Part shown: one piece after another, positions 58,621-61,723 of the stretch | Position numbering within the stretch: the first letter of the stretch is position 1 | How the letters are laid out: every line of letters begins with the position of its first letter | Source of the DNA: Planctopirus ephydatiae | GTDB taxonomy: Bacteria; Planctomycetota; Planctomycetia; Planctomycetales; Planctomycetaceae | NCBI RefSeq assembly: GCF_007752345.1 | Contig: NZ_CP036299.1 | Location: 2,619,001-2,683,000 of the forward strand | Length of the DNA stretch: 64,000 nucleotides | Direction: 5' to 3' | The notes under the pieces: model-generated | The model's input: only the letters and a program-made list of their open reading frames with translations | What the model was told of the DNA's origin: nothing | Database searches by the model: none | Translations under genes and position numbers: made by a program

Positions 58621-59428
58621 TATGAAATACACTCTGGCGTTCCTCAGTTCCCTCCTGCTTGCTGTGCTGACCACACGGCCAGCCGCCAAGCACGAGAGGC
58701 GCGGGAGACTCTGATTGCGAACGACGTGCTTTCCATACGCGACGGGCGGTTCCATCGCGACGGCTGCCCTTCAAACGTCACGGAGTTTCCGCGGGCCCAC
58801 TGCGTGACGGCAAGATGAGTACGTTTGAAGGTGGCCGACGAGTGCCCCGCATCATGTGGGCTCCCGGTCGAAGTCCTGCAGACACTGTGTGCGATTCACT
58901 TGCATCGACCATCGACTTGCTGCCCATGATCGCCGCCCTGACGAACAAGCCACTTCCCGACGATCGATCCATCGATGGCGTCGATATCTCGTCCTTATTG
59001 TTTGGCGGCGCTAAGTCCCCACGCGAAGAGTTTCTTTATTTCAACAACGGTGGACTGCTGGAGGGATCCCTATCGGAGATTGGAAGTTGCTGACGAAGCA
59101 AACCCAAGGCAAGAAAGACGGAGTCGCCGCGAAGTCCTCGCAAAGCGGATTCTGGATCTGCCGTATTTCAGTCCCCAGCGGGATCGACTCAAGGAGCTGG
59201 CGCCCGGAGTGTTCTACCTCTCTTCCAGGCGGCTACTCGATCAGCTTCACGGGCACGAAAATATTGAAACAGGACGGCTCAGCGCATCATGGAGTCGGCA
59301 TTTATCCAACCGTGCCTGCGGTGCCGACCCGTAAGGGCCTTGCCGAAGGACGCGATGAAGTGATTGAAGCAGCCTTGGCGCTTGTGTTGGCTCGGATCGC
59401 CCACAGCTCAATCCAAGCAAAACCTTAA
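58621..59428 (+). pseudogene. Chimeric gene debris: signal peptide, sulfatase middle, S41 peptidase tail
   Basis: Three pieces in series. At 58621 a signal peptide (MKYTLAFLSSLLLAVLTTRPA) runs into a stop after 30 codons. At about 58760-59120, in other frames, the middle of a sulfatase is readable: GPLRDGKMSTFEGGRRVPRI, LASTIDLLPMIAAL, then, after a frameshift, GDWKLLTKQTQGKKD. From about 59125 to 59428 come parts of an S41 peptidase, LKELAPGVFYL and, again frame-shifted, LPGGYSISFTG with HHGVGIYPTVP and GLAEGRDEVIEAAL. No intact product is possible. Confidence 0.75.
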
Positions 59429-59459: not shown

Positions 59460-60422
59460 TCATTCGTTCGCGGCAATGACTGCGTCCGAGACCGTGACGT
59501 CTTTGCCACGCAAGTTTCGGTCGAAGAATGACTTGACTCGAGACTCAATTTCTGAGCCACCGATACCGTGACCGCCGCCTTCGATCTTAACGAGTATTGT
59601 ACTCATCCCCGCATCTCGCTGTCGTTGGTAAAAGGAAACACCTTGATCGAGAGGGACTGTCTTGTCAGCGGTACCATGGACAATCAGGAATGGAGGATCG
59701 TCTTTCGATACGTGCGTCGTTGGCGATGCTTGCTTGGCCATCTCCAACTTTTCCTTGAGGGGACCGCCAAAGAGTTTGTAGACGGGTTGGCCGGGTTGGC
59801 TCATCTTAGGAGCATCCGTATCGAATCGTAGAAAGTCGCTGGGTCCACAATAATCGACAACGCACGTGACGCGACTGCCGACGCCGGTTGTTCCAAGATC
59901 GCCTTCCAACTCTTTGACATCGCCTGATGTTCCGAGCAAACTGACAAGATGCCCACCAGCCGATGAACCCCAGACTCCAATCCGCTCGGGGTCGATTCCA
60001 AGTTGCGTGGCATTCGCGCGAAGGTATCTTATGGCTGCCTTGCAATCATGAATCTGGGCCGGCCAACTGGCGACGTCTGTTAAACGGTATCCGATACTCG
60101 CACCGGCATAATCTCCAGTTGCTACCCATTTGCCAACGCGAGCCAATCCGCTTGACTTGTCACCGTTCTGCCAACCGCCGCCGTGAATCCAGACGATGCA
60201 CGGCAATGGTCCATTCGCCGATGTTTTGGGAGTGTAAAAATTGAGCTTCAAACGAACATCGCCGACCATCGCATATTCGACATCATTCCGAATCGTGATT
60301 TTTTCTTCAATAGCTGCAAGCTGCTTTGCCTTGCCCTTTGCTTGGTCGGCTTTGTCCTGGGCCGAGGTTGGGGTTATGGAAGTCAGCATCAAAAGAATGA
60401 AAACGCAAATCTCTGTACGCAC
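59460..60422 (-). CDS. Secreted acetyl-esterase/lipase-like alpha/beta hydrolase
   Basis: The frame runs to 60509; a hydrophobic export segment (EICVFILLMLTSITPTSAQ) suggests a start near 60422 (GTG) or 60467. Oxyanion motif IVWIHGGGWQNGDKS; nucleophile elbow IGVWGSSAGGHLVSLLG; catalytic His in GGGHGIGGSE. DVRLKLNFYTPK is the typical esterase opening. It lies on the opposite strand to the sulfatases. Likely deacetylates or de-esterifies carbohydrates (inference). Confidence 0.87.
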   Translation of the reverse strand: MRTEICVFILLMLTSITPTSAQDKADQAKGKAKQLAAIEEKITIRNDVEYAMVGDVRLKLNFYTPKTSANGPLPCIVWIHGGGWQNGDKSSGLARVGKWVATGDYAGASIGYRLTDVASWPAQIHDCKAAIRYLRANATQLGIDPERIGVWGSSAGGHLVSLLGTSGDVKELEGDLGTTGVGSRVTCVVDYCGPSDFLRFDTDAPKMSQPGQPVYKLFGGPLKEKLEMAKQASPTTHVSKDDPPFLIVHGTADKTVPLDQGVSFYQRQRDAGMSTILVKIEGGGHGIGGSEIESRVKSFFDRNLRGKDVTVSDAVIAANE

Positions 60423-60509
60423 GATTGAATCTCCACAGAAAATGAAGGTGGACGCGGTGAAAAACATTTGTAGCCAGCATAAATCGCGGCATTCACCGAC
60501 AAGGCGCAT

Positions 60510-60882
60510 TGTAACTGACTTTTCAAGTTCGGCGTCGCCTCCCTATGTGGCTAACGGCAGTCAGCTTTATCGTCGGTCGAGACCTGCTTCATCGCGACAT
60601 GCGTGTTTTTCCTGAAAGCGGCTGTTCCCGAATGAAGGCGGCACTATACTAATGGATTGTCACAGCTGAATTTTTGGGAAGTGGACGAGGTCACGAGTCC
60701 TTTTTAGTCGCCAACGGTCGCGGGACTCGTAACCTCGTCCACTACAGACAACCCCAATTTGAAGCCTTGACGAACCACTAGATTCATTCCCCGGGGCTGC
60801 GAGTTCAACCGTGGCTGTTTTTCTAGGGACCACACCTGGCGAAAGTGGCGCCGATCAGCGGGATGAACATAGCCAAATCACG
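60510..60882. other. Intergenic stretch holding an inverted repeat
   Basis: About 370 bp between divergent genes (esterase, minus; truncated sulfatase, plus). Apart from the inverted repeat at 60680-60743, I see nothing. Frames that cross it are short. Confidence 0.5.
60680..60743. repeat. Long inverted repeat (MITE- or REP-like)
   Basis: Two 21-bp arms (60680-60700 and 60723-60743) are inverted copies with one mismatch; the left arm reads AGTGGACGAGGTCACGAGTC plus C. The loop is 22 bp and begins TTTTT. It stands in intergenic DNA among gene fragments. No transposase is nearby. Confidence 0.85.
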
Positions 60883-61509
60883 ATGAGAATTAAACGAAAA
60901 GAAATATTTCCGTGGCTTCTGGCCAGGACTTTATCAGCCGCGATATTCGTGTTGCCGATCATCGGAATGTCGATGACTGTGGCTGCTGACCGGCCGAACA
61001 TCGTGATCATTCTTGCGGATGACCTCGGGTACGGAAGCCTCAATTGTTACGGCGCTGACGAGTCGCATGTCCGAACTCCAAACATCGATCGGCTGGCAAA
61101 GCACGGACGACGCTTTACTGATGCGAATACTCCCTCCTCTGTTTGCTCGCCAACTCGCTATGGATTACTTGCCGGCCGGTATGACTGGAGGACGAATCAA
61201 AAGCACGGCGTAATCAACACCACTGATCCGTTGCATATTGAAACGTCACGCTCCACCATCGCTTCAATGTTGAAGTCGACCGGTTATCGTACGGCTGCGA
61301 TCGGGAAGTGGCACCTTGGTTATGGTAAGGAAAAAGCGGACTTCACAAAGTTACTCACACCGGGGCCGTTGGATATCGGATTCGACTATCACTTTGCCGT
61401 GCCGCAGAATCATGGAGACGCGTCAGGGGTTTATGTCCGCGATCGGCAAGTCGTCGGCTTGCGCAGCGACCAAAAAGCCGGAAGTCTTGAAAACCGTCGT
61501 TATTTGTAG
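60883..61509 (+). pseudogene. Sulfatase gene truncated after its N-terminal half
   Basis: About 208 codons from the ATG at 60883. The signal segment (ARTLSAAIFVLPIIGMSMTVAA), PNIVIILADDLGYGSLNCYG, and Cys88-Ser-Pro-Thr-Arg92 (VCSPTRYGLLAGRY) with AIGKWHLGYG are intact. The frame stops at 61509 just after DRQVVGLRSDQKAG, before the second metal block. Normal relatives are ~480-520 aa, so the product could not be a full sulfatase. The 3' half is absent; DNA to 61723 holds only short frames. Confidence 0.8.
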
Positions 61510-61723
61510 AAAATCGACACTCCGACGGGCCATCCCGGCGTGCCAAACCGGTGCGAGTTGGGCAGGCTAATTAGTCATCGGTCGCCGTATCTGGAGGCCG
61601 TATCTGGAGCTTGATGCTGCAACGCATAAACCGCATCAGGTTCCTCCTCCCGATACGATTCGACCAACGTTCGCAACTCGGGGCTTGTTAGTAAGTCAAA
61701 TTCCGTCGCTGGAAATCAACATG
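61510..61723. other. Debris region between the truncated sulfatase and the DUF1501 gene
   Basis: No recognisable gene. A short perfect tandem duplication of about 13 bp (GCCGTATCTGGAG twice) occurs near 61590-61615. Confidence 0.45.

Follow-up and report, generated by a model that had tools for sequence, protein, structure and literature searches.

What is a near-perfect inverted repeat doing between two divergent genes of Planctopirus ephydatiae, and how far does it extend? The repeat lies in the window analysed here, a stretch of 64,000 nucleotides of this genome, and an earlier note had read it as a dispersed element of the MITE or REP type or as a strong bidirectional transcription stop. 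We compared the locus with its own genome and with those of other planctomycetes.

The inverted repeat and the element around it

The inverted repeat is real and non-random. Its 21-nt arms (60680-60700 and 60723-60743) match at 20 of 21 pairs across a 22-nt spacer that starts with TTTTT, just as the note had described. The dinucleotide shuffles of the window gave no such repeat in 60 (21-nt arms, at most one mismatch, spacer 0-40), against one in the real window. The RNA fold of 60660-60763 reached -42.7 kcal/mol (z -5.25 against shuffles), and the DNA fold of 60680-60743 a z of -6.82. The sole mismatch between the arms (GTC vs GTT) lies within the variable GNNA loop of the arm. The arms are present as first described, but that extent was too small, since they form the inner part of a longer element (60649-60781, Table 1).

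This element is short (133 bp) and bounded by terminal inverted repeats (TIRs) in which 11 of 14 bases match. The covariance model R1 scored the window copy at 122.7 bits (E 2.3e-27), with this copy among its 16 training sequences. Score matrices for the flanks, derived from 14 further elements and not from the window copy, gave 25.2 on the left (control maximum 13.2) and 29.6 on the right (control maximum 7.3), and none of 127,322 control placements in the window reached either score. Decay is visible as GTAG turned into GAAG in unit 1 and as three TIR mismatches. The window copy is a single decayed full-length relic of mobile-looking DNA, in which a further pair of inverted ends encloses two small hairpins.

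Table 1. Parts of the element and its neighbouring genes (positions in the window)
Feature	Position	Strand	Remarks
BD-FAE type alpha/beta hydrolase	59460..60509	-	Pfam PF20434, E 5.9e-63; start codon uncertain, ~60422-60509
Whole element, MITE-like, 133 bp	60649..60781	.	one copy found in genome
Left TIR, CTAATGGATTGTCA	60649..60662	+	11/14 bases are the reverse complement of the right end
Left shell segment, TIR to REP unit 1	60663..60677	+	29-nt left shell in alignment A1
REP unit 1, GAAGTGGACGAGGTCACGAGTCC	60678..60700	+	1 mismatch to family pattern; GTAG foot decayed to GAAG
Inter-unit loop, 22 nt, TTTTT start	60701..60722	.	20-22 nt loops in 65/123 pairings
REP unit 2, GTAGTGGACGAGGTTACGAGTCC	60723..60745	-	0 mismatches; consensus intact
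Right shell segment, CAACCCC type	60746..60767	+	36-nt right shell in alignment A1
Right TIR, TGACGAACCACTAG on + strand	60768..60781	-	inverted match to left TIR, 11/14
Sulfatase N-terminal fragment, 208 aa	60883..61509	+	Pfam PF00884, E 4.7e-22; domain positions 1-121 of 301

As had been claimed, the location is intergenic, between the hydrolase gene and the sulfatase fragment. The hydrolase is 51-53% identical to proteins of other genera (best listed) vs 41% to the one same-genus match listed, which is consistent with, though no proof of, arrival by transfer. When 60440-61710 was compared with three genus mates, two gave short DNA matches only (39 and 53 bases) and the third none. The hydrolase is flanked by two fragments in reversed order, one resembling a sulfatase C-terminus (58815-59428; by eye, no Pfam match) and the other the N-terminal one (60883-61509). 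Directly after the latter, the window carries a perfect 13-bp tandem duplication at 61584-61609 (GCCGTATCTGGAG). The largest group of neighbour genes near the motif comprised 15 ORFs in 11 loci, sulfatases by eye, with two places counted twice. Since the sulfatase family is large in these bacteria, we did not count this as an association. Other gene arrangements were seen at individual loci. At L334 (G443) and L335 (G387), REP doublets and genes of the RlaP family (PF10127) follow one another in alternation, and four of the five ORFs scanned were RlaP. In L333 (G393), REP units lie between or at the ends of a row of co-oriented genes: three for sulfatases, one of the FecR/laminin-G kind and one for an oxidoreductase.

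A dispersed REP-type unit and its shell

An arm search at up to three mismatches through all 5,214,061 bases of the genome, a single contig, returned the two window arms only. A 101-base query against the same genome returned the window place and three matches at E 5.55, and the whole-element covariance model found the window place alone at E <=0.5. Arm pattern and covariance model found nothing in the three genus mates searched. Further away, the picture changed: GGACGAGGTTACGAGTCC occurred at up to one mismatch in 9 of 170 genomes in the family-level search, and the 23-nt unit GTAGTGGACGAGGNNACGAGTCC, at the same stringency, in 24 of 397 genomes of the class sample, nine of which belong to the same family as the window (f1) and 15 to a second family (f5). 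A scan at up to three mismatches matched 20 of 23 genome handles, most of which had been chosen because of known matches and two of which (G020 and G178) are one genome. Arm units numbered 679 in MAG SJ586 (G170), 250 in G121 and 107 in Rhodopirellula maiorica (G171), against 0-1 for a reversed pattern in the same genomes. The hosts among the matches listed include R. maiorica SM1, Rhodopirellula sp. SM50, Stieleria sedimenti, Rubripirellula obstinata and strain SV_7m_r. An exact 20-mer gave no match in viral contigs, nor did blastn with the 133 bp (E up to 0.01) in plasmids and phages.

The idea of a dispersed MITE- or REP-like element thus suits the family, whose REP-like arms are scattered through other genomes, some of them in a MITE-like shell, but not this genome, in which one copy was found. 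Counting arm copies here and in other planctomycetes, as had been proposed, gave one place in this genome, yet positives elsewhere in the class. A single copy together with no conservation in relatives had been named as grounds for giving up the reading, and only the first half of this was observed. The high copy number expected of a REP is likewise seen in some other genomes and not here, where there is one doublet. What looked like an odd inverted repeat becomes a member of a large planctomycete repeat family.

Aligned copies extend the arm to the 23 nt of the unit: in 328 units, the positions directly 5' of the search word held G (309), T (303) and A (296). A GT[AG]G foot precedes the hairpin; window unit 2 carries GTAG and unit 1 GAAG. 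The arm can be written as a hairpin composed of GTAGT, a 7-nt stem side, the GNNA loop and a second 7-nt stem side, in which GGAC pairs with GTCC, followed by G·A, A·G and a G-C pair closing the loop. Covariation was examined in 521 raw units, 418-423 being used per pair. At stem pair 9/20, 14 units co-changed (13 Watson-Crick) vs 1.03 expected, and at 12/17 eight did so (seven Watson-Crick) vs 0.54 expected. Pairs 6/23, 7/22 and 8/21 showed no clear covariation (one, zero and two double changes), the two G·A pairs had no double changes, and one-sided changes occurred at every stem pair. Fewer stem pairs co-vary (two of seven) than a reading of the whole stem as paired would suggest. Among doublets with a compensated arm, the change was confined to one arm in 10/10 cases at 9/20, 5/5 at 12/17 and 1/1 at 8/21, which points to pairing within the arm being kept over pairing between arms where the two conflict. 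These cases represent few events (from G046, G443, G387, G351 and G302 at 9/20, and from G020, G443 and G387 at 12/17) and come partly from loci fetched for motif clustering.

Variant stem families keep the same frame, GGACTTC-GCCA-GAAGTCC and GGATCTT-GTTA-AAGATCC, and both fold as 7-bp hairpins. Under a standard DNA energy model the G·A arm alone reached -1.8 kcal/mol, no better than shuffles. Loop positions 14 and 15 are where the two arms of a doublet most often disagree (31 and 51 of 148 doublets). Loop frequencies among the 328 aligned units are skewed, most loci having been retrieved by an exact word with TT at the loop. Each unit is an imperfect palindrome, judging from the within-arm covariation and the variant stem families, and units occur as inverted doublets (148 doublets; 123 pairings listed, alternative pairings in clusters included). 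Other doublets do not conserve the inter-arm loop, T-run included. The window doublet is intergenic, and some doublets of relatives overlap predicted ORFs. Each arm resembles a separate REP hairpin, and the covariation supports a fold of each arm alone, with the GTAG feet pointing outward. The constrained unit, the 23-nt arm, can now be separated from its variable settings, loop and shell. At one locus (L337, G302 C1, 2541-3292), seven units in the same orientation follow each other with a period of ~121 bp, the whole element or a portion of it being repeated in tandem there. For the motif clusters, a reading as integron attC sites was dropped by eye, the units being mostly inverted doublets.

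The doublet flanks in SJ586, G020 and KLAP7 share a common outer sequence with inverted ends of the form CTAGTG[CG]T[TC]TGTC, and the full-length relatives read are mostly 132-134 bp. Exact TIR matches in SJ586 numbered 46 vs 3 for a control. In 16 aligned elements, the TIR column pair 7/136 was C-G in eight and G-C in seven, a compensated change. Of the 32 element ends in alignment A1, 20 read CTAG, compatible with a duplication of TA or CTAG. Two elements from unrelated places in G357 and G403 are 91% alike over 134 bp, where the alignment stops, a length close to that of shell plus core. Multiple copies with unrelated flanks are present in relatives, and not in this genome. Among 160 doublets with enough flank, the shell was found on both sides in 29 (14 of which had trained the flank matrices), on one side in 22 and on neither in 109. 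The comparison of two 200-kb stretches of G357 and G403 revealed no empty site; in the first, long blocks match but not the sequence to the left of the candidate site, and the second was not syntenic. Elsewhere (L226 2099, G170 C2), two element ends lie back to back with one common CTAG (GGACAAAGCACTAGTGCTTTGTCC), as if one copy had landed at the tip of another.

The same shell was also found around other cores. In G020, 9 of 10 loci read with another REP core scored at least 16.4 for the shell. The threshold of 10.2 applies to placements beside a doublet, and the 20 loci concerned (L289-L308), selected by a model of which the shell is part, were scored from end to end; hence a matched control was used, in which 1 of 3000 arm-free stretches reached 16.4 (99.9% point 13.4, maximum 26.6; 91 stretches near an arm dropped). 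The stretch scoring 26.6 (L376 ~2938, G403) may be a further shell with another core. Shell-like flanks around other cores occurred in G125 (three loci, 12.8 to 20.2) and G150 (one locus, 23.2), while the flanks of L302, L303 and L308 did not score as shell. A different long double palindrome, formed by CTGGGGACGAGTCTTCGAGCCCCCAG and a nearly inverse copy, gave a weak model match in L302 and L303 (G022). Conversely, the same arms stand in other flanks that recur within a genome in KLAP7, G121 and SM50/Stieleria, and less regularly in R. maiorica (by eye). G357 has two flank kinds, each with its own loop and with arms identical in kind. On these sequences, shell and core appear exchangeable: one shell is found with other REP cores, and one core in other flanks.

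Candidate enzymes and competing readings

Genes for mobilising enzymes were sought around both layers. In 50 Y1_Tnp loci scanned at up to five mismatches, no RAYT was flanked by the arm, and the one copy present was a variant doublet in L162, ~0.8 kb from a Y1_Tnp gene; the association with a RAYT expected of a REP was thus not seen in these loci. They contain about half of 106 hits, including all of those in G170 (7), G171 (11) and G121 (9). Some 14-mer starting with GTAG or GTGG recurs in 21 of the 50 (no control run), which would be expected of RAYTs that have their own REPs. As to the shell, DDE_3 gave no match in G020, G170, G171 and G173, and none of 24 DDE_Tnp_1 loci of G000, G020 and G170 had an inverted pair of the CTAGTG type. 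G121 contains two IS630-type elements whose ends begin with TAGTG (the search required TA). No autonomous IS630-type partner with shell ends was found in DDE_3 searches of six genomes and DDE_Tnp_1 searches of three, and IS630 and DDE_Tnp_1 elements were rejected as the source of the shell for want of a partner in the genomes examined. About 14 kb beyond the element and outside the window, a weak DDE_3 (IS630-type) remnant scores below the curated cut-off (G000:C1:2693768-2693893). With no cognate transposase in the loci and genomes examined, we infer both the movement and the enzymes.

The inverted repeat likely forms the centre of a decayed yet full-length copy of a planctomycete element that is dispersed and non-autonomous, with a REP doublet in a TIR shell. 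The inner layer is an inverted pair of 23-nt REP-type units with GTAG feet outward, and the outer layer a shell with ~14-bp TIRs of the CTAGTG type. By analogy with what has been proposed for REPINs, the arms would be putative sites at which a REP-type (Y1, RAYT-like) nuclease recognises the single strand. The shell may have been moved in trans by a putative DDE transposase targeting CTAG or TA, possibly IS630-like. The window copy would have come from outside, perhaps with the neighbour gene, and would now be immobile and carry out no required function. It is probably a stray, immobile copy of a REPIN-in-MITE composite, and the simplest account would be one incoming copy that later decayed.

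Four other readings were weighed. That the repeat arose by chance, or as a fold-back artefact of assembly, can practically be dismissed: it would suit the single copy in this genome, but not the 60 shuffles without a hit, nor the recurrence of arms and shell in genomes that were assembled independently. It is very improbable that the element is a strong bidirectional terminator or RNA hairpin of its two neighbours, the other suggestion of the earlier note. The long hairpin is very stable and a T5 run follows unit 1, but the element lies 5' of both genes, which are divergent and transcribed away from it, a setting that makes a terminator role unlikely. Moreover, no T-run follows the long 21-bp stem at either end on either strand, the loop is not conserved and no Rfam family was reached at curated score. 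A simple terminator scan did not report the element; one of its two sites (0.8 expected) lies just outside, at 60795-60816. Two microRNA models of Rfam scored far below their curated scores and were rejected.

The remaining two readings each keep one layer of the element. A pure REPIN or BIME moved by a RAYT, with the shell as conserved flank or hitch-hiking sequence, is a possibility to which we give limited weight. It would account for the GTAG foot, the hairpin arms, the inverted doublets often with 20-22 nt loops, the many copies in some genomes, the tandem or clustered units and the 109 doublets with neither flank of this shell. Against it speak the 50 Y1_Tnp loci without a motif-flanked RAYT, the likeness between unrelated places that reaches to or near the shell ends, and the compensated TIR pairs in the shell. 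We consider it unlikely that the element is an ordinary MITE of a DDE insertion sequence whose inner palindromes have no REP-type role. The TIRs, the mostly uniform length, CTAG at the ends of A1 and the two IS630-like elements of G121, whose ends start with TAGTG in a search that required TA, would all suit such a MITE, but the same arms stand in other recurrent flanks (KLAP7, G121, SM50/Stieleria; by eye) and also as tandem units, they occur in G357 in two flank kinds with different loops, and the compensated changes act on the arm. The composite of REP doublet and shell remains our preferred reading. We tentatively raise a further, rather doubtful proposal, that of a two-tier mobile element in which a REP cassette serving as Y1 substrate would be swapped between unrelated MITE shells moved by DDE transposases. 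If true, single-strand and double-strand mobility would spread each other. If the exchange of shell and core is real, the spread of REP doublets without a linked RAYT becomes testable.

Comparison with known systems

REPs in planctomycetes are already known; a REP doublet inside a TIR shell is a setting that we did not meet in the titles, abstract openings and selected passages of the literature searched. MITEs of the IS630/Tc1-mariner type, among which passages of PMC2817692 name the Correia and RUP elements, resemble ours in being short and in having TIRs, and the ends of ours begin with TAG as in the two IS630-type elements of G121. They differ in that no autonomous partner was found here, that the core holds REP units and that the target duplication is putative. 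RAYTs are also treated in PMC2817692, and Y1 classes in PMC6006769.

REPINs are described, in the parts of Bertels and Rainey (2011, PMC3116915) considered here, as REP doublets forming hairpins, and excision junctions are reported there for REPINs of P. fluorescens. The present doublets agree with that description in their two inverted REP units, a less conserved spacer, outer ends that are the most conserved part, and dispersal as a pair. Unlike them, some doublets here sit in a TIR shell (on both sides in 29 of 160), and no arm-flanked RAYT was seen. The GTAG foot is shared with the REPs recognised by TnpAREP, for which passages of PMC8266576 give stem irregularities or loop bases as recognition features. 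The E. coli REP described there has an AA/GC bulge, whereas the present arm has tandem G·A pairs and a GNNA loop, and its enzyme was not found.

A precedent from a planctomycete host is given by Di Nocera et al. (2013, PMC3733652). The portions of their text considered report different GTAG REP families in R. baltica, together with many tyrosine transposase genes with flanking repeats. They also describe two Pseudomonas transposase genes enclosed by TIRs in which degenerate GTAG-1 units are joined to stem-loops unrelated to them, and hundreds of such TIR structures in P. putida and P. fluorescens. A REP doublet in a TIR shell, as found here, is not described in those portions. The GTAG at one end, the short stem-loop, the dimers and the planctomycete host are common to both, and the arm may already be among the REPs drawn in Figure 1 of that paper.
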